From positions 1 to 57,654 of IMG/VR virus record IMGVR_UViG_3300034137_000038: a stretch of 57,654 nucleotides of DNA; one strand, written 5' to 3'. This document shows, one piece after another, positions 1,923 to 57,654 of this stretch. The position numbers and the translations under genes are program-made. The notes under the pieces were generated by a model, which was not told the origin of the DNA, searched no databases, and saw nothing but the letters and a program-made list of their open reading frames with translations. Source of the DNA: a virus. Numbering within the stretch: position 1 is the stretch's first letter; every line of letters starts with the position of its first letter.

Positions 1923-4076
1923 CTAAATCGTCCTCACTAAATCAAACTCAATCTGATCCAGCCCCGGACGCACGCCACCAATCGGCGTAGTGCCTGGCCG
2001 CTCGCTGGGCCCGCCGCCGGGGTTGTCTTCAGCACCGCTGCCGGGCTGTGGCGGCGCTTGTGTCGAATCTTCCAACCGGTCGTAGTAATCCACCGGATAA
2101 GCCTGCGCTTCGATCACAACCTTCAGATCGGACTGGCGCTGGAAGCTCATGATGCGGAAATACTCGAAGGGCTCATCTTCGATCTCATGTGATACGACCT
2201 TGATGACTTGATACTGGTGCAGTTCGAGAGCGTAGGCGTACCATGTGGTGAAAGTGACTCTCAGGTTGTTCTTCAGGCCGCCCTGATCGAACTCTCCAAG
2301 ATCGAGGAGCAGATTACCGACACGTACAGCTTCGCCGAGATTAGTGATCCCCAGTGCAGAATATTTCTTCTCGATGACCCGTATCGAAGTATCCCCGAGG
2401 GCCTTCCCTGCTTTTAACTGCTGCGGTTGGTCGCTGAAGGTTAAAGGGCGCTCGACGTTGCCATGCGAGGCGTCCTCAAAGGTCAACACAATCTGGTTTG
2501 CTAATTCACCGTCGCTGATAGCTGATCGCTTGACGGAAGTAATCTCGGCGGTGCCCAGCTTTTCAAAGACGATGTTTCGATCAGGGCCGTAATCTGTGAA
2601 GACGGGGATGCTGTCGTCAATTACCTGGCGCTCGAGCGGCAGGACTCTCCACTTACCATGGTGCTCGAAAGGAAGCGTGAAGCGACCGAAGAGGCAGATG
2701 TCGTTGATCTGCTGCTGGGCCGTGCGCTCTGTCAACTCGGCCACAAAGGTTGAGCGAGTGCCGGTGAAATGGTTGCCGTTAGCGTCGTTGTAGCCGACCT
2801 GCTCACTGCACCAATTTGCCAGATAAATGAAGTCGCTCATCACGAAACGAACCGGATCGAGCTTATGACCCCAGCGAGGCTCACGGATCACGTCAAGCAA
2901 ACACCAAGCCCGGATGATCGTGTACTGCTCTGTGAAGGTGTCCTGATCCGTGTAGACGCGAATCTCATCCCGGCCTTCGACCGTGCATTCTCCGTTCAGG
3001 TTTCCGGGGCCATAGCCAGCGGGGTTGACGGGGCCGTAGACCGCGAAGAAATGTGCCGTCCGGCTGTAGTTGCCGATGCCGGGAGAAAAGCCCGTCCTGC
3101 CCTGCCCTCGTTCGCCTCGTCGCACGTTGAGGTGCTCGAAGCCGATCAAAGCGCCGTTGACCTTGCAGCTCGTCACTGACTTGAGACGCCCTTCGCCGAT
3201 CCTGAAGAGCACGCGCACGAAGCCCTGATCAGGGTGATTAGTATTGAACTGAGGGGTATAAGCGAGCAGCTCCAGTTGACGCGCTACGCGCGGGCCATAA
3301 TGCACGCGCAGGGCTTGCTTCAGATTAGTCTCATTGCCTTTGCTCGTAGCTAAAAGCGCCGGGCCTTTGGTCTGGTTGTTAATTAGAGATTCAATGACCG
3401 TATCGAATCCCAGGTAGAAAATGTCTGTGCCATGGCGAGCGACACACTCTGCGCGAGAGGTGGCAATCGTGGTGAAGGGCTGGCCACTGCCGTTGAGTTG
3501 ACCCGTGACGCCGCCGAGATGGCGGTCATACGGGCAATCATTCGCCAGGCATTGCTCCTGATCGGTCAGAAGCCCGCCGAAGATCACAGCATGGCATCCT
3601 GCAACGGCACGGCGACTCGGCAACGGCAGAAGAGCAGAGCGGAAGCCCGAAGCGGCGGTCGTCTTGAACATGCCGCCCCCGGCCCTCTGCGGCGTGCGCA
3701 AGTGTCCTGACCATTCCGATACAAGTAAATCAACCTGCGGAAAGTAGTAAAAAACCTCAACCTTGCTGCCTTCACCATGCGCTCTAAAGAGCCGGGAAAT
3801 TTCACGATCCCTGATCTCCGAAAAGGTAAGGGATATTTGCTCATCGGCAATGGAGCTGGTGCGATTGATCGGAAGGAAGTTGGAGCCGACCAGCCTGGCC
3901 TCAACCGTGAGGGTCAGCGCGGCATAGTCCGGCAGTTCATTGAGAGCCCTGGCCGCATAGTATTTCGTGCCGTCAGGCGCGGGCCAGTAGACAGCCACGA
4001 TCTCCGAGACCTGCGGTCTCGCAATGGCTCGCAATGCCGCAAGCTTCGTCTGGTCAGTTGTGCTCTCGATACTCAT
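1923..4076 (-). CDS. Large tail hub / baseplate protein
   Basis: The 717-aa product follows the tape measure and the gpM-like gene, the usual place of the tail hub that closes the tube and carries fibres. The N-terminal half has a beta-rich region with conserved cysteines (GCHAVIFGG, CLANDCPYD) reminiscent of DUF2163/BR0599-type phage tail proteins. The C-terminal half has hub-like strands ending in a Pro/Gly-rich linker (GSGAEDNPGGGPSERPG). Its start overlaps the stop of the gpM-like gene by 4 bases. Family assignment is by recall of pattern, so the hub role is likely but the exact fold is open. Confidence 0.65.
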   Translation of the reverse strand: MSIESTTDQTKLAALRAIARPQVSEIVAVYWPAPDGTKYYAARALNELPDYAALTLTVEARLVGSNFLPINRTSSIADEQISLTFSEIRDREISRLFRAHGEGSKVEVFYYFPQVDLLVSEWSGHLRTPQRAGGGMFKTTAASGFRSALLPLPSRRAVAGCHAVIFGGLLTDQEQCLANDCPYDRHLGGVTGQLNGSGQPFTTIATSRAECVARHGTDIFYLGFDTVIESLINNQTKGPALLATSKGNETNLKQALRVHYGPRVARQLELLAYTPQFNTNHPDQGFVRVLFRIGEGRLKSVTSCKVNGALIGFEHLNVRRGERGQGRTGFSPGIGNYSRTAHFFAVYGPVNPAGYGPGNLNGECTVEGRDEIRVYTDQDTFTEQYTIIRAWCLLDVIREPRWGHKLDPVRFVMSDFIYLANWCSEQVGYNDANGNHFTGTRSTFVAELTERTAQQQINDICLFGRFTLPFEHHGKWRVLPLERQVIDDSIPVFTDYGPDRNIVFEKLGTAEITSVKRSAISDGELANQIVLTFEDASHGNVERPLTFSDQPQQLKAGKALGDTSIRVIEKKYSALGITNLGEAVRVGNLLLDLGEFDQGGLKNNLRVTFTTWYAYALELHQYQVIKVVSHEIEDEPFEYFRIMSFQRQSDLKVVIEAQAYPVDYYDRLEDSTQAPPQPGSGAEDNPGGGPSERPGTTPIGGVRPGLDQIEFDLVRTI

Positions 4077-4480
4077 ACGGCGCGTTCTCGCCTCTGCTGC
4101 AATGAAAGCCCGGTGGAGAACAGCTTGATCATGAACATGTCAAAGCTGAGCGTGTGCTCTACGAACTTCGCCAGGTAATCCTGGTTATCTCGCGGGCACG
4201 TAATCCAGAAGCTGGAATTCCCTTCAGCTTTTCGTCTGACAAAGAAGTCCCAGAGATAATCAGCTCTGGATTCAATGGTGAAAGTGCCGCCCTGCGTAGA
4301 GCGATCGAGCACACCAGGCAGCACTTTGAATACAAGTTTCCATGCGCGCGTGCCTTCGCTCGACCCGACAAGCGCCGAATCTTCGTAGCCATCGCCGAAG
4401 CTGGCTTCGAGAATGTCGAAGCCGATCACGCATGAAAGGCCGAAGGAACCGATGACCTCTAATCTCTCGTAATCCGGCAT
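4073..4480 (-). CDS. Minor tail protein, gpM-like
   Basis: A 135-aa protein directly downstream of the tape measure gene (shared base at 4480). The pattern SFGDGYEDSALVGSSEG followed by RAWKLVFKVL matches the lambda gpM / distal tail family, where a G-D-G-Y segment precedes strands that build the ring at the tube tip. Size and position fit the family. It probably links the tape measure and tube to the hub encoded next. Confidence 0.7.
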   Translation of the reverse strand: MPDYERLEVIGSFGLSCVIGFDILEASFGDGYEDSALVGSSEGTRAWKLVFKVLPGVLDRSTQGGTFTIESRADYLWDFFVRRKAEGNSSFWITCPRDNQDYLAKFVEHTLSFDMFMIKLFSTGLSLQQRRERAV

Positions 4481-7400
4481 CAGCTCATCCCCATGTTTCT
4501 ACCCAGTTGACCGATGAAGCTGGCATCACTGGTGCTTGTCGCGAGCACGGCTGCACCCACCGCGCCGGGATTCTCTTCCGCTCCTATCGCCAGGACTTGA
4601 CCTGCCGGCATTGAGCTGATCCGTGCGATTTGCTCAGCGAGCTGACCGAGCACTCCCATGATCGCGGTCACACCGATGCTCGAAGATCCGCCGCCATTGC
4701 TCGAAGATGAGCTTTGAGAGCCACTGCTCGCAGGAACATAGCCACCATCCAGGCGCTGCACCGGCGCGCGCGGAACAACTACAGCATCGCCGCTATTGAG
4801 CGCATCCATTGCGTCAACACCGACGCGCTCTGTGGCGTTTGAATTGAGAACGTATTCGCCGCCGTCAAGGACAGCATGAACCCAATCGCGCCCGCGACGC
4901 GCAGCATCAACAAATCCTCCCGATAGTCTTCGGACAAAATTATTTTCTTTGGACGCGGCATCGCCGTACTCTTTATTGAGGGTCAGCTTGCTGTTCTGGC
5001 CTGTGCTTTCGGCATAGGCTTGAATGATTTCTTTCGAGGGCTCTAGCCTGATCGTTTCGAGCAAGTGTGCTTTCACCTTACCGCGCCCGAATGACTGCTC
5101 TCCGATAGCTTTTATTTCGGAGAGCGTTTTCATATCTTTCACATCAACGGCATACTCTCCCTTAATAGCTTCGCGCAGCTTTTTCTCAGTGCCATTGCGG
5201 AAGTGACGCCAGAGCAGAAGCCCGCCAACGACAGCACCAACAGCTACAGCAGTCCACGGATTTGTTAGCAAGGGAGTGAGTGAGCTAAACATGCTGCCGC
5301 CACCAGCCGCAGCGCCGCCCGCGCCCGCTCCACCTGCTGCCGCTCCCGCTCCGCCGGCAGCAGCACCACCGCCGCCGAAGATCATGCTCATCATTCCAGC
5401 ACTCGAGCCTGCCGTTGCAGCTCCAACGCCAGCGAAAGCATTTCCCGCCGCCGCCGCACCACCAGCAGCACCACCGCCGCCGAAGATCATATTCATCAAA
5501 CCAGCGCTTGAACTTGAAGTGGCCGCTCCAACATTGGCAAAGGCGTTTCCACCCGCAGCCCCGCCTGCCATTGCCGGGGTTGCCGCGCCACCCCCACCGG
5601 AGTTGAAAAGGTTTTTGAAGCTGTTGAAAATGTTGCTAAGAGAGAAGCCGCCGCCCTTGCCGCCGCCGTGCCCTAACATCCGATCATTCCCTTCCTCATC
5701 CTCTGAGCGCGGGTTGAACAGCGATTGCAGATATTTACTAACCTTGCTCTTAATGAATTCTTTGACGATGTTAAGGAACAGGTCAGCGAAGCCCTTCTCA
5801 ATTCGCTTGAGCATACCGATTACGCCGCCCTCGAATGAAGTCAGAGAGCTTCCTAAAATATCGCCTATGGAGTCGGAAACTTCTTTGACTTTCTCGCGGT
5901 ATGCGACGAGCGGGCGCTGCATGATTTCAGCCATCTTGTTTTGATGGCCCACTTCTTCAAGCTGCATACGCTCTCTGAATAGTGCTTCTATTTCGGCTTT
6001 TTCTTGAGCCGTTTTACCTTGAAGATTTACACTCCCCTGCGCCGCGAGAATATCTATCTGCGCTTGGCGGTTTCTTAGAATCTCACTCGCAACGTCCTGA
6101 GCTTGACGCTGTTGTTTTATGTAGGCGGGACTTGCGCCAAGCCGTTCTAGCTGGTCAATCTTCGCGTTTCCTATTGCAATCGAAAGATTGAGATTTTCCA
6201 TCTCAATGCTGCGGAGTTGGTTCGCATGTTGGCGTGCGCTCTCAATATCCTTCTGCCGCCCGGCGGCGATGCGTCGGTCTGCTTCTTCCTGAGTCGCAAC
6301 CTGCTTTTCGGTGATGCCCTTAATCTGGTCGTTGATTCGGCGGAATTCTTGGACGTTTACGTTCGCGGCATTTTCGATGCCTGCAATCATGTTTCCCGCC
6401 GCATCGTAAACCACGCCGACGGCTTCAAATAAAGCCCGCTCTTCTGAGGTCAGCGCTTCAAGGCGGCGATTGAACGCCGCCGTCTGAATATCAAGAATTT
6501 TCTTCTCTAAACCCTCTTGCGTGATGATGCGATTCTCTGCAATCGCGCGGTAGGTTTCGATTGATCGTTGATCTATACTTTCACCGATGGACAAAAGGCT
6601 CTCTTGGTGCGCGCGTAATGATTGAATCTCTGTCTTTGCCGCGTCATCATCAATCCTTTGGACGTTTCGGTTGTACTCACTGCGAGCCGCCGCCGCCTTC
6701 TCGGTCAATTCCTTAACCTGTAATTCCCTATCCCGGCCCTTTGAAAGCTTCTGCGCGGCGACAAGCTCAGCATCAACAGTCGCCAGCTTAGAATTGAGCA
6801 ACGCCTGCTCCGCCTCCTTTGATTGGCGAACAAACTCATCAAGGTTGATAGATTGCTGGTCGTATGACCTCTTGGCTGCCTCTGCGGTTTCACGATAGAC
6901 GCGCTCAGCAGTTTTCTGTTGAAGCTCCAAGCCCTTGATTGCGGCGCGCGTGGCGGCATCCTTTTCGGACGCGCCGCCCTTACCTCCCCCGCCGCCACCA
7001 CCACCGAGCCCCGCTAGATTCACGTCCCGCACAGGCCCGCCGCCCCGCATGATCTGCTCTATCTCTTCTTTTGAAAGTTTATGACCGCCAGCGGCGCGCA
7101 CGTCGCGCTCTAAGGGGTCTGCTCCTGCCGTGCGCGCAATCCAACTCCAAGCCTCTTTCGCGGTTTGTCCGGCGCGGTAAGCCCAATTAGCGATTGATTG
7201 CAGCTTGACAATCATCTCGCTTCCATTATTGGAAACCGCCTGCAACTCAGACCTGAAAGTTGCTATGTCGCCAGTGGCTAGAGCGAAGCCCGCCGAAAGC
7301 AGATGAAGCACAGAACTTGCAAGGTAAGCGATGACAACCTGCAACTGAATGAAGGGCGCTATCAGAGTAACGATGCCGCCATACAAAACCTCGCCAGCCT

Positions 7401-42852: not shown

Positions 42853-42908
42853 AAACTTGAGGTTGAGATAAGTGAAACATTTGATTGACCGGTAATTTAG
42901 TGCTTTGG

Positions 42909-42934
42909 TAGTATCATCCCTGATAGTATTACGC
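42909..42934. promoter_or_regulatory. Operator-like site shared with 45636-45660
   Basis: TATCA-TCCC-TGATA sits at 42912-42925. The following CTGATAGTAT (42920-42929 reading) is the exact reverse complement of ATACTATCAG at 45651-45660, and TATTACGC occurs at both loci. One regulator may bind at both places. Confidence 0.5.
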
Positions 42935-42942
42935 TTGCAAGG

Positions 42943-43161
42943 TCAGGAATTGGCAAGTGCCGTGATTTCCTGAATCTCAAGCACTTTCTCCTCGACCAAT
43001 TCGCCGAGTCGTTTAGCGATTTTTCTTAACAATCTCGGGTTAGGACGGAGTTGATTAAGCACTTGAGAGACAGCGCTCCGATCCTCTTCGAGGTCGCGAG
43101 CAATGGCCGTCGCGTTCGTTCCCAAAATCGCCATCAATGCATTGGTTTCACTGACCGTCAT
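42943..43161 (-). CDS. Cro-like helix-turn-helix protein
   Basis: A 72-aa protein with a helix-turn-helix (ATAIARDLEEDRSAVSQVLN) and a helical C-terminus. It is divergent from the CI-like gene at 43256, the layout of a lysis-lysogeny switch. Its promoter has TTGACA (complement of 43223-43228), 17 bases and TACCAT (complement of 43200-43205). Confidence 0.7.
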   Translation of the reverse strand: MTVSETNALMAILGTNATAIARDLEEDRSAVSQVLNQLRPNPRLLRKIAKRLGELVEEKVLEIQEITALANS

Positions 43162-43178
43162 GGTGTATTCTTCCTCAA

Positions 43179-43228
43179 GTAACAGGTGTTACAACTGCGA
43201 TGGTAGCCATAATGTCGAAAACTGTCAA
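43179..43228. promoter_or_regulatory. Switch control region between Cro-like and CI-like genes
   Basis: Contains the perfect palindrome GTAACA-GG-TGTTAC (43179-43192), just downstream of the -10 box of the Cro-like promoter, and the -35 box TTGACA on the minus strand. An operator for one or both regulators is likely. Confidence 0.65.
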
Positions 43229-43255
43229 TCACTTTTTAGACGAAACGGGGAAACA

Positions 43256-43726
43256 GTGACTGTTGGAGAGCGCTTAATCGAAGCTTATAAAGAGTCGTTG
43301 GGCACGGAAGATAAGAAGATTATTGCGAAATATCTGGGCTTCGAGACGGACAAGGCTGTTTACAAAGTAATTAATGGCGAGCGGGAATTAAACTTCGATG
43401 CGCTTATAAAATTCAGGAATTCTACGAAACGTTCCATAGATTGGCTGCTCACTGGTGAGGGCCCGGATATAACTTCAGCGGTCGAATCGGAGCAGGAGGC
43501 CCGCATCGATCTCGACGAAAGTGAGACCATCTTCATTCAGGGCCTGGCAGAGGTTGAAGGGAAAGGATTTGATGAAGTAGTTCGCGAACTTGTGATTGAG
43601 GCACTCCGACAAAGAAGCTCCACTCTCTTTACAGACTACCGCCAACTCGATCCAGATCAACTCGAATCGTTACTTAAACAATTATTGAAAGTTAATCACA
43701 ATGGGGGAGGAAGGAAAACTGCTTAA
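43256..43726 (+). CDS. CI-like phage repressor
   Basis: A 156-aa protein starting at GTG 43256. VGERLIEAYKESLGTEDKKI, IAKYLGFETDKAVYKVINGE and RSIDWLLTGEGPD match the N-terminal DNA-binding domain of phage CI repressors (the SIDWLLTGEG ending is characteristic). The C-terminal part is a short helical region and not the usual self-cleaving protease, so SOS cleavage is not expected. It ends by a 4-base overlap with the convergent TPR gene. Confidence 0.75.
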   Translation: MTVGERLIEAYKESLGTEDKKIIAKYLGFETDKAVYKVINGERELNFDALIKFRNSTKRSIDWLLTGEGPDITSAVESEQEARIDLDESETIFIQGLAEVEGKGFDEVVRELVIEALRQRSSTLFTDYRQLDPDQLESLLKQLLKVNHNGGGRKTA

Positions 43727-45099
43727 TCCGCCGAGCCCTTATCCTTTACATCGGACAGGAGGGTGACGGGATGAGGTCTCTTTTTCGTCACTGACTTCCT
43801 CATGATGATACTACGTTTACGAGGTTTGACTTCCGTGCGTTTATTTAGCAAACCCGAATGTCTTCCATTATTAACCATAACCGAGAAAGCCTGCTGAGTT
43901 ATACCAAGGCGCAGCGCTGTTGGCGTAGGCTTACCCTCGCAAGCAGTTAATGCTTCAACGATCAACTTTCGTTCAAAGAGTAAAACCTCTTCCTTGAACG
44001 GAAGGCCCGCTGGCACGTAGATCGCTTCGCTCAACTCCTCAAACATCTGAATAGCAATTTTAGATCGCTGCTCAAGCGTTACGTATTCTGCTGCTAATTG
44101 AAAAGCGTGCTTATACACCTCGAATGATTCAGCGAAGCGTCGCAGCTTGGCTAGAGATTGAGCTTGTAACTGTAAAGACTCCACCGCCTCAACGAACTCC
44201 CCTGCATCTTCAAATTGTTCAGATGCACTGCGCGCTAAAGCTTCGGCCTCAGAGTATTTTTGTTCTGCTAAATAGATGCGAGCCTGTGAATCATCAACAT
44301 GGACGAGCGCACCTTCATCCTTTAATGCTGTGAATAATATTCTGGAGCGGGTTATGTGGGCATGCGCTTCGGTGAAATCCGAGGCTGTCATGCATAACAG
44401 TCCTAAATTGTTTTCCAACCGAGCTAGATAGCGGGTGTGCCCGGCTTGTTCCAAATGTACCCGGCATAAGAGAAACTCATCGTAAGACTGTTTCAAATTT
44501 CCGGTGTTCTTCGCAACAAGACCGGCTTCATTATGAAGGGTCGCCTGAAGAGTATGGCTGCCGCTCGCTTCGACGAGCTGCTTTATCTCATTCAGGACGT
44601 TGAGTGCCTCACCATACCGCCCCTGTGATCTCACAACCAAGGCAAGGTTTAGCTGTGCCCACAACCTGGTTCCGTTTGAAATCTCCTTAATGCGATCAAT
44701 AGCGCATTTGAGACGTACCTCCGCTTCAGGTAATGAGCCCTGCCGCCAGTACATAATCCCGAGCGTGCTTTCTGCCTCGGCTGCATATTCCGGTTCATTG
44801 AGCTGGATATATCGATCAAAAGCTGCGGTAACAATATCCTTGGCTAATTCCTGAAGGTTGGCTTCTTTGCGTGCGCTGCCGATCCACCCAGTCAGAGAGC
44901 CTGCGCGTAATAAAACTTGCGCCGCCGAAACAGGATTCAGCTTCTCTATCCTGGGCCAGTGACCCGCGCCTTTCCAAAACTCCACGAGTTCCTCAACTGC
45001 TAAATCATATTCACCTGCCCGCTCTTGATTCAGAGCTTTTTCACAGGCGTCTGTCGCTCGCTTGTCAATCGCATTTGAAGAAGGTGTTCTGACTGGCAT
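43723..45099 (-). CDS. TPR-repeat regulator with C-terminal Fis-type HTH
   Basis: A 458-aa protein. At least six TPR-like repeats cover residues about 20-360 (for example AEAESTLGIMYWRQGSLPEA, NLALVVRSQGRYGEALNVL, LHNEAGLVAKNTGNLKQSYD, LENNLGLLCMTASDFTEAHA). FERKLIVEALTACEGKPTPT followed by ALRLGITQQAFSVMV is a Fis-like helix-turn-helix, then a basic tail. TPR plus HTH is the design of peptide-sensing regulators of the RRNPP group, although there the HTH is N-terminal. It is divergent from a small secreted peptide gene and shares its control region. Convergent overlap with the CI-like gene allows mutual interference. Confidence 0.8.
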   Translation of the reverse strand: MPVRTPSSNAIDKRATDACEKALNQERAGEYDLAVEELVEFWKGAGHWPRIEKLNPVSAAQVLLRAGSLTGWIGSARKEANLQELAKDIVTAAFDRYIQLNEPEYAAEAESTLGIMYWRQGSLPEAEVRLKCAIDRIKEISNGTRLWAQLNLALVVRSQGRYGEALNVLNEIKQLVEASGSHTLQATLHNEAGLVAKNTGNLKQSYDEFLLCRVHLEQAGHTRYLARLENNLGLLCMTASDFTEAHAHITRSRILFTALKDEGALVHVDDSQARIYLAEQKYSEAEALARSASEQFEDAGEFVEAVESLQLQAQSLAKLRRFAESFEVYKHAFQLAAEYVTLEQRSKIAIQMFEELSEAIYVPAGLPFKEEVLLFERKLIVEALTACEGKPTPTALRLGITQQAFSVMVNNGRHSGLLNKRTEVKPRKRSIIMRKSVTKKRPHPVTLLSDVKDKGSAD

Positions 45100-45143
45100 G
45101 AAGCTGCACCCTATACCTTTGATTTGACTTAGGTAATGCGCCT

Positions 45144-45221
45144 TACAAGAAAACTTGTAGAGGCCGGTTTCTTAACCTATGATGAGGACGACAGTTCTTA
45201 CTCCCACCATTCCGAAACCGG
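45144..45221. promoter_or_regulatory. Control region of the TPR regulator and peptide genes
   Basis: A perfect palindrome TACAAG-AAAA-CTTGTA (45144-45159) overlaps a -35 element TTGTAG (45155-45160), which is followed after 17 bases by TATGAT (45178-45183) pointing to the peptide gene. A second inverted repeat CCGGTTTC (45164-45171) / GAAACCGG (45214-45221) brackets the leader. Confidence 0.6.
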
Positions 45222-45229
45222 AGCCTTTT

Positions 45230-45424
45230 ATGAACAAAACAAAAAGAGCCGCTATAACTCTGGCGTTGTTGGTAATCATGGCCGTCTCTACACAGGCCGG
45301 TGATATGGGTATGCCAGGTGATGAGTCGCCGACGGAGCCAACAACAACGAGCGCGCCCTCGACAGACATCACGCTGATAGATTATCTGGGCATTATCATC
45401 AGCATCGCGACGAGCCAAATCTAA
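45230..45424 (+). CDS. Small secreted peptide precursor
   Basis: A 64-aa product with a typical Sec signal (MNKTKRAAITLALLVIMAVS, cleavage expected after TQA). The mature part is GDMGMPGDESPTEP with a Thr/Ser/Pro linker and a hydrophobic C-terminus (LIDYLGIIISIATSQI). GGAG lies 6 bases before the ATG. It lies divergent to the TPR/HTH regulator and is followed by a strong hairpin. It is a candidate signal peptide precursor; a small membrane or envelope peptide is the alternative. Confidence 0.65.
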   Translation: MNKTKRAAITLALLVIMAVSTQAGDMGMPGDESPTEPTTTSAPSTDITLIDYLGIIISIATSQI

Positions 45425-45479: not shown

Positions 45480-45635
45480 GCAGTTTAAGTGTGCCCGCCG
45501 TCGGGGGGCGGAAGATTGAGAAACTGAGGAAACGCTCGCATCTTAGCCACAGTTTCTGTGAAAAGGCAATAAGCAAAGATCTTTGCCTGATAACCTTAGA
45601 CACCGGATTTTGCGATTCGGATACTAGCAAAGACA

Positions 45636-45683
45636 ATACTATTACGCAAGATACTATCAGAGAAGCCATGCTATTTGTATAAT
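45636..45683 (+). promoter_or_regulatory. Promoter and operator of the HTH gene at 45691
   Basis: A consensus -10 box TATAAT (45678-45683) ends 7 bases before the ATG at 45691, so the message would be almost leaderless. Upstream are ATACTATTACGC (45636-45647) and ATACTATCAG (45651-45660), which recur near 42909-42934 in reverse orientation. Confidence 0.6.
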
Positions 45684-45690
45684 GCGAGGC

Positions 45691-45927
45691 ATGGTCACGA
45701 TTGATATTCCTGGGGCCGCTGAGAAGCGCGGGATTAAAAACTCGTATCAGTTGATGAAGGCCATCAACTCGGCAGGTGGGGCGCAAGTGGATGCGGCTAC
45801 TGCCTCTCGCTGGTGGAAGTCCAAAAGCATGACGATGATCAGCACGACCACCATTGATACGATCTGCCACTCCCTCAAATGCAAGCCAAGCGACTTCATC
45901 ATCTACCAGGCAAACGTAAAAAAGTGA
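45691..45927 (+). CDS. Cro/C1-type helix-turn-helix regulator
   Basis: A 78-aa protein. Residues SYQLMKAINSAGGAQVDAAT, SRWWKSKS and TTTIDTICHSLKCKPSDFII form an XRE-type DNA-binding domain of the HTH_26 kind. The ATG at 45691 is used because the one at 45682 lies in the -10 box. It is convergent and directly adjacent to the gene ending at 45928. Confidence 0.7.
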   Translation: MVTIDIPGAAEKRGIKNSYQLMKAINSAGGAQVDAATASRWWKSKSMTMISTTTIDTICHSLKCKPSDFIIYQANVKK

Positions 45928-46404: not shown

Positions 46405-46608
46405 ATGACCGCGAGACAATTTGCTGCCGAGATGAACGTTAACTACAGAACAGCTCTCAACTGGCTCGACGCGGGGCTGGTGCCTGACGCTGAATACATT
46501 TCATCTCCGATTGGATCTTACTGGGAGATTCCTGCAACAGCACTGAAGATGGAACGCCCGAAGCCTGGGCCAAAGAGGAAAATCAAACAACCGGAGGCTG
46601 CACAATGA
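46405..46608 (+). CDS. Small HTH protein before parA
   Basis: A 67-aa protein, [20 protein letters not shown] then [16 protein letters not shown], of the MerR/excisionase helix-turn-helix type with a basic tail. It overlaps parA by ATGA. It is likely the repressor of this operon and may take the role of the centromere-binding partner. Confidence 0.65.
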
Positions 46609-47405
46609 AAGTGATCGCCATCGCTAATCAAAAAGGAGGCGTCGGAAAAACCACAACGGCGGTCAACCTCGCTGCGGCTCTGCAATCACAGGGGCGAAAG
46701 GTGCTGGTGCTCGACCTTGATCCCCAGGCGACAGCCACACGCTTTCTTCTCGACCGCTATGGCACAGACGGGGAGACGGTTTACGACGTACTGATGCACG
46801 GCAAGCCTTTGTCAGAGGTTATTCTCAAGACTCCCGTCGGCATTCCCGTCGCTCCCAGCAACTTCAATCTGGCGTCCCTCGACCTTGACCTCAATAGCGC
46901 CTTAAACCGCGAGCACAGGCTGGCGGATGCATTGGAAGAGGTCACAGGCTTCGACTATGCCCTGATTGATTGTCCGACCTTTCTGGGCTTCGCCAACATC
47001 AACGCATTCGCCGCCGCTCAGAGTGTGCTGATCCCCATAGAGTGCGCGCCGGAATCATGGGAAGCGGTTCCCTATCTGATGAATACCCTCAGAAAGATCA
47101 TCGTCCAGCTCAAACATCCATTAACGATCTTTGCGCTGCCGACTTTTCTTGAACGGACGAATATTGCACGGGATATCCACACGGAGATTTGTGCGCACTA
47201 CGAGGCGTACACTCTTTCGCCGATCAATAAGAACGTCCGTCTGAAAGAAGCGTTCAACGCGCGCAAGCCGATTATTCAATACGATCCGGCAGCATCAGGA
47301 ACAATGGACTATCTCAGGGCTGCAAAGGAGATCATCAGTGGACACGAAACCGAAACGGAGATACGGCGCAATCAGGAAGGGCGAGGAAACAGCGGCAGGA
47401 ACTAA
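46605..47405 (+). CDS. parA: ParA-type partition ATPase
   Basis: A 266-aa protein. The deviant Walker [20 protein letters not shown] (residues 8-26), switch [14 protein letters not shown] and switch [14 protein letters not shown] are all present. There is no N-terminal HTH, as in type Ib ParA. It positions plasmid copies in the cell before division and indicates an extrachromosomal prophage state. Confidence 0.9.
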
Positions 47406-48471
47406 CCAGGAAGTATTCGACAAGTTTTTCAAGAATGACGGCTCGGACACTTCCCTTCCCATGCAAACGCGCGTTGCCGCGGCTGAGCGGGAAAGTAGTA
47501 CCACGGGTACTACCACCCCTACCCCTACTACCACCCCTACCCCTTCGATACCGATTGCGCCAGTCAGAGATTTCACGCGTTTCGCTAATTCAATCGTGCG
47601 AGATGGAGTCACCGGCGGGCTCTTCACTGGTAAGAGCAAACAGGTTTATGACTTTCTATATTCGCAGACGCGTGGGTACATCACCCCCCGCCGATCAGTG
47701 CGCATTCCGATGGACCGCCTGCGCGTCGGCGCAGGGCTCGGATCAGACAAGTCGCTGCGTTCAATCCTCCAGCGGCTCAGTGCGGTCGGCTTGATAACCA
47801 TTCGTGAGATCGGCGGCACGCAGGGCGGCAACGATTTTACAGTCTTCTTACCTGAAGAGATCGAGGGAGAGCAGGCGACCCCTGCTACCACGGGTACTAC
47901 CACCGCTACCCCTACCACCACGGGTACTACTTTCGACCACGGGTACCCCCCGCAGAAAGCAGTAGGGGTAGCGGTGGTGGATTCTACCAGTGGTAGCAGG
48001 GGTGCAAATATTGAAAGCGTTGAAGGTTCCGCGCCACCTAATACTTTCTTTAATACTACAGAAAGAAAGAATGATGATGATGACGCGACAGCGCTGGCCG
48101 GGTTGAATGAAGTGCTCAAACAAGTTGCAAAGGAGATTACTGGCAGGGAATTATCGCCGACGGAATCTGATCGCTGGCGAGAGCTTGGAGAGGTGCTGGC
48201 AGCCGAACTGAAGATCGCAGCCGGACGCACCACGGTCTCTTCAGTCCCTTCTTTTCTGGCTGAGCATCTGCGCCGTCGTCTCTGGAAAGTGGACAAGCGG
48301 CAGGCGCGCGCAGAGGGCATGGAACTTCCCGACGAAGCTATGAAGACTGCACCCACAGTAGACGCCAAGCAGTGCCCGGATTGTGCAGGCTCAGGCTGGC
48401 ATTACCCGGACGGAATGGAAAAGGGCGTCAAGAAATGTCGGCATGAAAACTTGAGCAGTGAAGGGAAGTGA
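47338..48471 (+). CDS. Plasmid replication-type winged-helix protein
   Basis: A 377-aa protein starting at GTG 47338, with AAGGAG 7 bases upstream and overlapping the parA end by 68 bases. A winged helix lies at residues about 95-170 ([40 protein letters not shown]), flanked by Thr/Pro-rich linkers. A C-terminal helical part ends with a zinc-like pair ([16 protein letters not shown]). It resembles initiators or accessory replication proteins of plasmids. Iteron-like repeats lie within the gene, reminiscent of the lambda O gene. It could instead be the ParB-like partner. Confidence 0.6.
47495..48001. repeat. Iteron-like repeats inside the replication-type gene
   Basis: ACCACGGGTAC occurs at about 47500, 47887, 47917 and 47936. 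TACCACGGGTACTACCACC is shared by the first two sites. At 47495-47513 GTAGTACC and GGTACTAC form an 8-bp inverted pair. An inverted run of GGTAG/GGTGG units lies at 47973-48001. The repeats encode the Thr/Pro linkers of the protein but also look like binding sites for an initiator. Confidence 0.6.
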
Positions 48472-53612: not shown

Positions 53613-56600
53613 TTAATTGGTCTTGTAAACTGCGTTGATGTTGATAGTTGATGTGTTGGTGAAGGCAGCGTCCGTTAATGCAGTCGCCGTACCATTGTTA
53701 TTGGCGTAGAGGTTGACTGTAGTCGTAGCAGAGGGCGTTGTCTGCCCGAACGTCGTGCCTGTGTAAGACGCGCCGTAGATGACCACCTCGACCGGTTGGA
53801 AGCGATTCGACGAAGAAGTCGCCGCAACCGGCAGTCCGGTCAAAGTGGCCGTCCCTGTTGATGAGCCTTTGTTAGACAGCAGCATGTAGGCATCAACGTA
53901 AACAAGGTCGCCAACACGCGTGTACTTGCATACCTGTGCAGTGTAAGTCAGCCCCGTGCTTGCGCCGCCGAACTTGAGCGAGATCGTGCATGATCCTTCA
54001 TCATAGTTCGCGAGCGATGTTCCCCCAAAGTTTATCGAGGTGGCTGCGGCGGCTCCGAGGGTTGGAGTTACCAGAGTTGCGTTGTTTGCACGGACGAACC
54101 CGCCGCCATCGCCCGTCTCGTCACTGACCACGCCCGCAAGTTGTGCGCTGGTAGTCGCAGCAAACTGCCCCAGTGTGCCGCTCGTCGCGCCGTAAGTGGT
54201 CGTATCAACAGAGAGCGTGCCGTCACTGCCTGAAGTCTTCACAAATCCATTGCTCGTCAGGTTCGAGAGCTTCGCTATATTCTGCGTCGTGTTGACAGTG
54301 ACCGTATTGGTCGAGCGTGTCAGCCCCGTCGAGAATGTTAACGGGACTTCGTAAGCGCTCGATGCCGTGTAGGCCGCGCTGCCGAGCGTACCGCCTGCTC
54401 CGACGTTCAAGGTCGAACCGTCCGTCCCCGCGATAGTCAGGGTGTTATTGACCGTGAACGTCTTGGCACTTGTCAGGTTGAATGTGCCCGTCGTTGTCGT
54501 GACCGTCAGGCCGTTGTAGGTCTTTCCGGTCAGAGCGGAAGTGATGCGGCCGTCGGCCAGAGTGCCGCTCGAAATGTTGCTCGCATTCGTCGTATCAACA
54601 TTGGCGACGTTGCCTAACCCGACATCGCCTTTGACTATCCCGGTCGGCGTGGTGATGTTTGGCGAGTTGCCGAATACTACTGAACCGGTTCCGGTCTCAT
54701 CAGAGATGGCTCCGGCAAGGCCCGAGCTATCCGTCACGCTGGAGACAACGCCGGTTGTCGTCGTAACCTTCATTAAGCCGGTGGAGAGGGTTGATAGGGC
54801 CTGCTCTCCTGAGAGCGTGGCATCCGGGACTTGAGTAATATATGTGGCATCCGTAGGCGCTCCACTTCCACCGCACGTCGTACCGGCATCAACAAAATTT
54901 CCATCAGCGTCTGTTTTTACACAGTTGTCGGGGGTCAGAGTGCCCGTCGTCGTCGCGATCTTCGTAGAATTACCGGAGATGGAATCAAGGGTAGAACCAT
55001 CCAACACGAGGGAGGGAGTAACAACCGACGTGCCGAAGTAGCCGGTGCGAGGACGATTGGCCGAACTTTGCCCGATGTCAACCGCATCGTCATCCGACGC
55101 TCCAAAATAGTCGTCAGTAACTATCCAACGATTCAGGCCGCTGGTGCGAAAATAAAGAGACCCGCCGACGTTCGCCGTCCCGATTGCGATGTCTCTGGTC
55201 GTTCCAGAGCCCGCCGCGCGCGCCATAATTTCGTAAGGTGTGCCATCACCAAAGGCATTGATGTCGAGCGTTTCAAAGTTGTCCGCATCATAGTACCGTC
55301 CATAGACGTGAACATTATTCCCGAGGAGTGTGCCGGGCCGCATATCCCAACTACGGTCGAAGCTGCCAATGGGAATCCCACCCACTCCGAAATATATGCC
55401 TGAGTTTGAAAGGTAGGACGCAGATGTAGCGGTGGTTGCTTGAATAGCGCCGGAGCCAACAACTCTGAGGACGCCGGAGCTTGTCACCTCAATGCCGTTG
55501 CCGCCGCTCGCCGTTGCTTTGAACGGGTTGATGGCCGAGCTTGAATTAGCTACGGCGGAAATCATGTAGCCCGTTCCCGTATTGTTATTTGTGTCCCGGA
55601 CAGCAAACAAATCAGCTGACGCGCCCGTTGCCCCGCCCCATGTCATAGTGATTTTGTTCGCGCCCATCGAAGGTAGAAAATCGCTTGTCGGGTTCGCGAG
55701 CTGATCCAGTCGGACGGAGGCGTAAGTCTGCGCGCCGGTCAGGAAAGTATTCGCCGAGGCCGTTCCACTTCCGAGTCGTGCGGTCGCAATCGTTCCACTG
55801 CCGATTGCGGCAGCATCGAGCGAGCCGCCGCCTGCGGCGTTCTGGTGATTGTGGGTTGCATTGACGAAGCTGGCGATAGTCGGGGTGATGATGGTTGGGG
55901 TGTCGTTCCCCATGAGCAGCCCTGTACCTGTCTCGTTTGTGATCGAAGCCAGAAAGTTCGCGCTCGTATCAGAGAGACCATAACCTGAGAAAGTTGTTGG
56001 GTTAGTTCCCGCCGTCACTCTGCCTTGTGCGTCGGTCGTTACGCTTCGATAGGTGCCAGCCGTGCCGGTGTTCTTGAGCGTCGTCGCTAGCGCGCCGCCC
56101 GCAGTCGTGATGTCACCGGTGAGTGCTGGAAACCTTGCAGCCAGAAGCAGACTACCAGCGTCGAGGCCCGCATAGCCGCTCGCCGCATTCTTGTTTGCCG
56201 TATTTTCGTAAGTGGTCGTATCAACAGAGAGCGTGCCGTCACTGCCTGAAGTCTTCACAAATCCATTGCTCGTCAGGTTCGAGAGCTTCGCTATATTCTG
56301 CGTCGTGTTGACAGTGACCGTATTGGTCGAGCGTGTCAGCCCCGTCGAGAATGTCAGCGGGACTTCGTAATCACTTCCCCCCGACGCCGAAGAAAAGCCG
56401 CCACTGCCATTGCCTTTTAAGATCGAGGTGCCTGAAGTCGCCGGTGCGTAGTCTGTGCCCGATACGGCAGCAGTAAAGGCGGAGGTGCCGTTGCCTTTGA
56501 GGAGACCGGTCAGTGTGGCCGCGCCAGAGCCGCCTTGAGGAACAGGAAGGATGCCAGCGACTTCTGCTGTTGCCAGATCAACAGCGTTCGAGGTCGAGCC

Positions 56601-57654
56601 TGAGCCGATTACGTTCGTCGCATTCGTCGCATTGGTTGCGTTCGTCGCCGTTGTTGCGCTTGTGGCCGTTGTGGCCGTCGAGGCATTGCCGCTCAATGTA
56701 GCCGTGATCGTCCCGGCTGAGAAGTTGCCCGATGCGTCGCGCGCGACAATGGCGCTCGCGGTGTTGGCGCTCGCCGCTGTTGTATGCGTGTTCGCCAGCA
56801 CGCCATTGACTTCTGCTGTTGCTAGGTCTACAGCACCTGTCAGGGAACCAGAACCTATTACATTTGCCGCGTTCGTCGCGTTCGTCGCCGTTGTTGCGCT
56901 GGTGGCCGTTGTGGCCGTCGAAGCATTGCCGCTCAAGGTGGCCGTGATCGTGCCCGCAGAGAAGTTGCCCGATGCGTCTCTGGCTACTATGGCGCTCGCC
57001 GTGTTGGCGCTCGCTGCCGTCGTCTTACTGTTGGGCAATATCCCATTGACTTCGGCGGTCGCTAAATCCACAGCCCCTGTCAGAGAGCCAGAACCGACTA
57101 AATTAGTGGCATTGGGCGCTGTACTACTAAAGGAGAGCGTTGACACGTTAGAGACCGGCGCGGAGGCCGTCATCATCTGCCCTTCTGTCGGCTGGATATT
57201 CGGAAGAAGGTAGACCGTGGAAGTCGTGACAGAGGGAGGGGCTGATAGCCCTACATAGTTTGAGCCGCCGCCGCTTGTGTCCTGAATGAACCTTATCTGA
57301 GCGGCTGAGCCACTATTGCCGAGAACAAAATTCCCGCCCGAATACTGAAAGAGGGATTCGGCAATAGTGGTTGAGCCCGCCCCACCTGTGAAGTATGGGA
57401 AGCGATTCGTCAGGATCGTCGTCGTGACGGTCGCCTTGCTGTTCAGCTGAGTTTGAGCATTTGAAGAGAGCCCGGCGATATTCAGAAAGTCTGTTGCGCT
57501 GGGAGTGGATTCGCCTTTGTAAGCGTTGGCGCTCGTAGCTGTAGTCGCGTTCGTCGCCGTTGTTGCGCTGGTGGCCGTTGTGGCCGTCGAAGCATTGCCG
57601 CTCAAGGTGGCCGTGATCGTGCCCGCAGAGAAGTTGCCCGATGCGTCTCTGGCT
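53613..57654 (-). CDS. Tail fibre protein, repetitive body and C-terminus
   Basis: The main part of the fibre whose start is at 980. It is built from near-identical repeats (ASAIVARDASGNFSAG, GNASTATTATSATTATNAT, VIGSGSLTGAVDLATAEVNG, LTFSTGLTRSTNTVTVNTTQ). One block of about 160 bases near 54187-54351 recurs almost unchanged near 56209-56368. Residues near the middle (around 55100-55600) carry an unrepeated section. The C-terminus (SCTISLKFGGASTGLTYTAQ) looks like a receptor-binding tip. The window breaks inside the repeat block, so the number of units may be wrong. Confidence 0.85.
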   Translation of the reverse strand, partial: ARDASGNFSAGTITATLSGNASTATTATSATTATNATTATSANAYKGESTPSATDFLNIAGLSSNAQTQLNSKATVTTTILTNRFPYFTGGAGSTTIAESLFQYSGGNFVLGNSGSAAQIRFIQDTSGGGSNYVGLSAPPSVTTSTVYLLPNIQPTEGQMMTASAPVSNVSTLSFSSTAPNATNLVGSGSLTGAVDLATAEVNGILPNSKTTAASANTASAIVARDASGNFSAGTITATLSGNASTATTATSATTATNATNAANVIGSGSLTGAVDLATAEVNGVLANTHTTAASANTASAIVARDASGNFSAGTITATLSGNASTATTATSATTATNATNATNATNVIGSGSTSNAVDLATAEVAGILPVPQGGSGAATLTGLLKGNGTSAFTAAVSGTDYAPATSGTSILKGNGSGGFSSASGGSDYEVPLTFSTGLTRSTNTVTVNTTQNIAKLSNLTSNGFVKTSGSDGTLSVDTTTYENTANKNAASGYAGLDAGSLLLAARFPALTGDITTAGGALATTLKNTGTAGTYRSVTTDAQGRVTAGTNPTTFSGYGLSDTSANFLASITNETGTGLLMGNDTPTIITPTIASFVNATHNHQNAAGGGSLDAAAIGSGTIATARLGSGTASANTFLTGAQTYASVRLDQLANPTSDFLPSMGANKITMTWGGATGASADLFAVRDTNNNTGTGYMISAVANSSSAINPFKATASGGNGIEVTSSGVLRVVGSGAIQATTATSASYLSNSGIYFGVGGIPIGSFDRSWDMRPGTLLGNNVHVYGRYYDADNFETLDINAFGDGTPYEIMARAAGSGTTRDIAIGTANVGGSLYFRTSGLNRWIVTDDYFGASDDDAVDIGQSSANRPRTGYFGTSVVTPSLVLDGSTLDSISGNSTKIATTTGTLTPDNCVKTDADGNFVDAGTTCGGSGAPTDATYITQVPDATLSGEQALSTLSTGLMKVTTTTGVVSSVTDSSGLAGAISDETGTGSVVFGNSPNITTPTGIVKGDVGLGNVANVDTTNASNISSGTLADGRITSALTGKTYNGLTVTTTTGTFNLTSAKTFTVNNTLTIAGTDGSTLNVGAGGTLGSAAYTASSAYEVPLTFSTGLTRSTNTVTVNTTQNIAKLSNLTSNGFVKTSGSDGTLSVDTTTYGATSGTLGQFAATTSAQLAGVVSDETGDGGGFVRANNATLVTPTLGAAAATSINFGGTSLANYDEGSCTISLKFGGASTGLTYTAQVCKYTRVGDLVYVDAYMLLSNKGSSTGTATLTGLPVAATSSSNRFQPVEVVIYGASYTGTTFGQTTPSATTTVNLYANNNGTATALTDAAFTNTSTININAVYKTN

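Follow-up and report, generated by a model that had tools for sequence, protein, structure and literature searches.

The window analysed here is the whole stretch of 57,654 nucleotides from a virus that makes up positions 1 to 57,654 of the IMG/VR record IMGVR_UViG_3300034137_000038. On its minus strand, an open reading frame (ORF) of 458 aa (43723-45099) encodes a candidate peptide receptor, predicted to be cytoplasmic, in which a TPR superhelix is followed by a C-terminal Fis-type HTH. The repeats match the Pfam family TPR_12 (E 4.5e-14), and the AlphaFold2 model of the protein (pLDDT 91.6) places helical TPR repeats at residues 10-360 (44020-45072, minus strand), with pLDDT above 95 across most of the domain. 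Set apart from them is a separate helical HTH unit at about residues 368-420 (43840-43998, minus strand). The Pfam match of this unit to HTH_8 (Fis) is weak in the window protein (E 0.012), while 50 of 59 aligned close relatives, the short class, contain HTH_8 at E<0.001. Together, the Pfam matches of the relatives and the model confirm the C-terminal HTH and hence the domain order that a preliminary description of this DNA had distinguished from that of arbitrium and Rap-Phr systems. A sigma54 AAA+ domain is absent from the window protein according to Pfam.

Among the best matches in a fold comparison of the model are LGN (Z 28), the Rap protein of phage phi3T with its pheromone (Z 24.8) and NprR (Z 23.7), and the model fits such peptide-binding TPR proteins. 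However, other, unrelated TPR folds score as high as Rap and NprR, and since TPR superhelices match many of these, the likeness alone shows no function. AimR is absent among the matches listed, which excludes nothing. TPR proteins of the HaaT and FxSxx kinds gave weak NCBIfam hits that reflect generic TPR similarity, and a link to RiPPs was dropped.

Head to head with the regulator lies a 64-aa ORF (45230-45424, plus strand) with an ATG at 45230 and GGAG upstream, and the coordinates of both genes agree with those first described. The small ORF reads as an exported peptide precursor, and relatives have a divergent exported ORF as well. It begins with MNKTKR and a hydrophobic stretch that leads to STQA^GDMG; a Sec signal peptide is predicted at residues 1-23 (45230-45298, plus strand) by our own heuristic scoring rule and by eye, with the AxA^G[ED] pattern found in relatives. 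Directly after the predicted cleavage site stands the candidate signal, the mature N-terminal motif GDMGMPG (45299-45319, plus strand), which occurs as a single copy here, unlike in the many relatives that repeat it. The precursor ends in a hydrophobic segment, DITLIDYLGIIISIATSQI (45365-45421, plus strand). Between the two genes, the palindrome TACAAG-AAAA-CTTGTA noted in the preliminary description is perfect and lies at 45144-45159, with 45 nt separating it from the start of the regulator gene and 70 nt from that of the peptide gene.

The pair is set in an immunity region. A CI-like repressor gene (43103-43726, plus strand; PHROG repressor E 7e-7) runs tail to tail with the regulator gene, and the overlap of the two convergent genes, also remarked on at the outset, amounts to 4 nt. 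Pfam support for the CI-like ORF is weak (HTH_3 0.06), its true start is probably near 43250, and its product is 31% identical over 145 aa to a CI-like protein of viral contig L184 that matches Pfam Phage_CI_repr. Divergent from it, a small HTH gene in Cro-like position (42943-43161, minus strand) matches HTH_3 at E 0.0011, which falls below the curated cut-off. Downstream of the peptide gene lies an HTH_26 (Cro/C1-type) gene (45682-45927, plus strand; Pfam 9.9e-10) similar to L184 positions 1210-1464. Repeated GATACTAT/ATAGTATC boxes occur at 42905-42935 and 45617-45663 of the window and at about 1494-1522 of L184, upstream of the HTH_26 genes and to the left of the Cro-like gene, and are perhaps the operator of HTH_26 or CI. 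The region is adjoined at 46605-48471 by a ParA-like partition gene (46605-47405, plus strand; PHROG ParA 9.8e-54) and, downstream of it, an ORF of 377 aa. Because the window ORFs scanned included no recognisable integrase, the virus may be a phage-plasmid. Elsewhere in the window, a 1330-aa ORF (53613-57605, minus strand) contains strings of Ala/Thr/Asn-rich repeats and has no PHROG match.

Single-protein searches with the window regulator gave no match in viral contigs or in phage and plasmid collections, and a first scan of genome contigs found no relatives. A fragment, and then small alignments, used as the query reached three viral contigs (L002, L004 and L005) and five MAG contigs of Acidobacteriota, whose titles read Acidobacteria, Pyrinomonas, Pyrinomonadaceae and Blastocatellia. 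Regulator relatives are present in 10 of 396 Acidobacteriota genomes searched, and in the family to which one of the 10 belongs 59 of 99 genomes hold at least one and often several, where copy numbers are lower bounds as the completeness of the genomes is not given. With fetched loci included, 146 non-redundant regulators were assembled, mostly from one Acidobacteriota family; the relatives are located in Acidobacteriota and in viral contigs.

The pair recurs widely among these relatives. A divergent exported small ORF lies within 630 bp upstream of 121 of 141 regulators, as detected by a heuristic rule that asks for a basic N-terminus, a hydrophobic stretch, a cleavage site of small residues and a polar continuation. 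Applied downstream of the same genes on the opposite strand, the rule finds such an ORF in 2 of 108 cases, and in shuffled regions in 30 of 705 (4%). The pairing is therefore not due to chance. The true share is higher than 121/141, because loci missed by the rule include further peptides recognised by eye, for example upstream of L022, L165 and L175. Each of the viral relatives found later (L184, L185 and L186) also has an exported peptide ORF, as do the distant homologues L199 and L200 in genome G424 and a third locus, L198, where the reading frame of the regulator is disrupted. Had relatives lacked a secreted peptide nearby, this would have counted against the pairing proposed in the preliminary description; about nine in ten have one. 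At one locus, L178, three exported peptide genes stand in tandem upstream of a single regulator. No papers on such TPR-regulator/peptide pairs in Acidobacteriota were found in the open-licence literature.

The precursors share an order of parts: a signal peptide ending in AxA, a mature start with the consensus G-[D/E/N/..]-[M/I/T]-x-[T/P/..]-[G/P], a linker rich in Pro, Ser and Thr, and a C-terminus that is hydrophobic. Of 124 precursors, 48 contain at least one further copy of their own first seven mature residues (at least 5 of 7 matching), against 0.54 expected when the remaining precursor sequence is shuffled; this count is conservative, because the cleavage rule misplaces the mature start in some precursors (e.g., L080, L098 and L122). 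Examples of tandem copies are GDIGVG four times (L082), GDLGTD five times (L033), GNITSR five times (L147) and GETTSPPC twice (L146). Among 83 pairs of identical motif copies, 270 of 606 codons differ, where 388 would be expected if codons were independent. Some copies are thus recent; many are old, with their amino acids retained at the protein level, since codons differ between copies of identical residues. By their sequences, the precursors have the anatomy of multi-copy pheromone precursors. The preliminary description had placed the signal in a C-terminal peptide; the repeated N-terminal mature motif is the likelier candidate, instead of or besides the C-terminal peptide.

The domain to which the peptide is tied can be read from relatives with other outputs. 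In 63 long relatives, a receiver domain is present in 41, a sigma54 AAA+ domain (Sigma54_activat, with the Fis HTH) in 19 and HisKA-HATPase_c in 7. Six kinase relatives inspected one by one all have the order TPR-HisKA-HATPase-receiver, with repeat-rich divergent peptides upstream. The peptide partner is kept while the output of the TPR domain varies between Fis alone, Fis with a receiver, sigma54 AAA+ with Fis, and HisKA-HATPase-receiver, and since the peptide stays while the output changes, the constant pairing is that of peptide and TPR domain. Within the short class, similarity between motifs correlates with similarity between TPR domains when the HTH is controlled (partial r 0.18, permutation p 0.0005) and does not correlate with HTH similarity when the TPR domain is controlled (partial r 0.004). 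This would tie the motif to the TPR domain rather than to the HTH, but is suggestive only, because a short, noisy HTH block biases the comparison towards the TPR domain. Either the N-terminal motif or the C-terminal hydrophobic segment may be the signalling part, because the latter also tracks the TPR domain (partial r 0.42, against -0.006 for the HTH).

A different function for the small protein would be that of an effector, such as a bacteriocin-like, membrane-active or surface peptide, with the TPR regulator as a dedicated controller that senses something else. The C-terminal segment of nearly all family precursors is hydrophobic and often amphipathic, as it might be in such an effector, and the several paralogues per genome would suit diversified effectors. 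Yet the mature peptides, by inspection, are not cationic, and a non-systematic look noticed no third conserved gene, for example for immunity, beside the pair. Tandem copies of the N-terminal motif, together with a TPR pairing that persists across four output types, fit a ligand better, and we regard an effector as unlikely.

Palindromes are enriched between regulator and peptide genes, where an arm score of at least 9 is reached in 16% of cases and in 0.9% of shuffles. The family operator T(A/G)CAAG-N4-CTTG(C/T)A occurs with at most one mismatch in 20 of 126 regulator-peptide intergenic regions, whereas the rates are 0.12% in shuffles and 0.96% in stretches elsewhere in the loci. The consensus was drawn up with the window in view, and 19 of the 20 matching regions belong to other loci. 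The palindrome of the window matches this operator and is its sole match with 0 mismatches in the 57.6 kb. L004 and L005, and likewise L160 and L161, have different palindromes at the same intergenic place, which would be in keeping with a joint divergence of operator and HTH. Across the family, sigma54 -24/-12 promoters were sought before the peptide genes and proved not to be a general feature. The exceptions are L031, L144 and L147, all of the TPR-histidine-kinase class, in which a sigma54-like element, TGGCACG-N3-CTTGAA (11 of 12 positions), precedes the start of the peptide gene by about 120-130 nt.

A shared operator would also serve a purely cytoplasmic feedback, in which the regulator senses the unexported precursor and so reports the export capacity or envelope state of its own cell. 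Autoregulation of this kind would work without secretion, the regulator itself is predicted to be cytoplasmic, and the module comes without a re-import gene. The repeated motif, however, is strongly retained directly after the signal-peptidase site, which suggests that the exported and cleaved form matters; we hold this feedback to be even less likely than the effector.

Among the phage copies, L184 stands closest to the window. This 39 kb viral contig carries a Pfam Phage_integrase gene and repeats the gene order of the window: HTH_26, peptide, TPR-Fis regulator and then CI (Pfam Phage_CI_repr), the last tail to tail with the regulator. The two regulators are 34% identical and group at support 0.99, while the remaining viral copies lie elsewhere in the tree. 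The 14-mer ACAAGAAAACTTGT, the core of the window palindrome, is found exactly in both intergenic regions, at the peptide promoter in L184, and L184 has a second operator copy of ACAAGAAAACTTGT upstream of HTH_26-integrase. An independent viral case is L186, in which a TPR relative (3821-5347, plus strand) without the Fis HTH has a C-terminus that weakly matches Peptidase_S24 (0.0083), with an HTH_3 gene as its neighbour; the protein may be a split repressor that senses through its TPR domain.

The host of the window phage can be approached through a phage-like contig in a genome from the Acidobacteriota family that holds most of the relatives. It encodes relatives of the window TerL (64%), portal and head proteins and of two other virion-region proteins; the 40 kb read of the phage-like contig in genome G424 gave no match to the window regulator. 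Given this contig and the affinity of the regulator, that family is likely the host range of the phage, which supports the diderm host suggested at the outset. A host peptide with the motif GDMGMPG was not found, the two matches in 119 genomes being GroEL tails; in the genomes searched from the probable host family, no peptide carries the exact motif.

These copies bear on whether the pair acts in lysogeny or is cargo only, a moron that takes part in the signalling of the host or interferes with it, which would be compatible with peptide sensing. The term lysogeny switch, used in the preliminary description, is supported only in part. The module is mainly chromosomal and was captured by phages several times, and such separate acquisitions suit cargo, as does the pair in L004 and its relative L005, which adjoins a gene that reads by sequence as portal-like, with no repressor; not all phage copies are therefore immunity-linked. 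Against cargo stand the placement beside cI and HTH_26 that the window shares with L184, the common operator position, the L184 operator before the integrase operon, the joining of sensor and Peptidase_S24-like end in L186, and a phage motif that the host-family peptides searched do not share. Cargo alone has some weight but falls clearly short of an even chance; lysogeny control by the window module falls somewhat short of one.

The reading that we favour, and consider moderately probable from the sequences compared, is that of a peptide-sensing regulatory pair captured from Acidobacteriota and built into a phage immunity region. Of the locus as first interpreted, the sensing part is strongly supported by the comparative evidence, and peptide sensing by the following route is rather likely. 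The small gene would give a precursor exported by Sec, from which signal peptidase would release a product starting G-D-M-G-M-P-G, and a short signal would probably be trimmed from it. The signal would have to re-enter the cytoplasm across two membranes, perhaps via an oligopeptide permease, and would then bind the groove of the TPR superhelix and alter the action of the C-terminal Fis HTH at the intergenic palindrome, so that the regulator controls transcription of its own gene, the peptide gene or both. The sign of regulation, the processing and the role of the peptide as ligand are presumed here, as are re-import and lysogeny control. In the phage, the regulator is tail to tail with the CI-like gene, and its state therefore probably feeds into lysis/lysogeny or prophage maintenance, through control of the neighbouring HTH genes or convergent transcription into cI. 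In the window the operator occurs once, so that a direct operator effect on cI or HTH_26 would be only a possibility there.

The recurrence of the pair in Acidobacteria points to a previously undescribed peptide signalling family outside Gram-positive bacteria. More broadly, and as a tentative proposal that we see as almost evenly poised, Acidobacteriota may have a large family of peptide quorum-sensing systems in which TPR receptors of the cytoplasm, whose outputs can be exchanged, are each paired with a Sec-exported pheromone precursor of their own that often holds several copies of the signal. In this diderm phylum, phages would have drawn on the family independently to build lysogeny switches that resemble arbitrium. 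If so, linear-peptide signalling by TPR receptors would extend to diderms, in abundant and poorly studied soil Acidobacteriota, dozens of candidate signals could be made synthetically, and arbitrium-like control would have arisen again from a different regulator. It also becomes testable whether GDMGMPG is a private phage channel or the channel of the host.

In arbitrium, the receptor acts on aimX, which lowers cI, and the receptor and peptide genes stand in tandem; the window pair is divergent instead. The arbitrium system of Bacillus phages (AimR-AimP-AimX; PMC7790227) has in common with the window a phage-borne receptor with a DNA-binding domain, an adjacent exported peptide gene and a link to a cI-type repressor, but HTH type and domain order differ, and the present family is mainly chromosomal. 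In Phr3T and Phr105, of two phage Rap systems of Bacillus subtilis, one exported precursor likewise contains several copies of a short pheromone and has a TPR receptor as partner (PMC11343458), whereas here tandem motifs after the signal peptide (48/124) are widespread throughout a family from another phylum. NtrC-type sigma54 activators share Sigma54_activat and the Fis HTH with the 19 long members named above, but the AAA+ domain is missing from the window protein and from roughly half of the family, and the sensor is a TPR superhelix. With RRNPPA systems (Rap-Phr, NprR-NprX, PlcR-PapR and Rgg-SHP), the family shares a self-contained pair of a TPR receptor and an adjacent small Sec-exported propeptide (heuristically detected here beside 121/141 relatives), many paralogues, carriage by phages and, for Rap phi3T and NprR, a similar superhelix, although LGN and other TPR folds score as high. 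In RRNPPA regulators, which are known from Bacillota, the HTH is N-terminal, and the surveys of linear-peptide signalling with TPR receptors consulted here are restricted to that phylum (PMC9765709; PMC10075063). In contrast, the window regulator has no N-terminal HTH or three-helix bundle and its TPR domain is N-terminal rather than C-terminal, the hosts are Acidobacteriota so that the family does not show the occurrence in Bacillota and their mobile elements typical of RRNPPA, the candidate signal is an N-terminal mature motif, often in tandem, and the sensor occurs in fusions with receiver, sigma54 AAA+ and histidine kinase domains as well. Ultimately, the regulator family would work similarly to RRNPPA and arbitrium systems but is not an RRNPPA member, because its HTH is C-terminal and Fis-type and its phylum is diderm.
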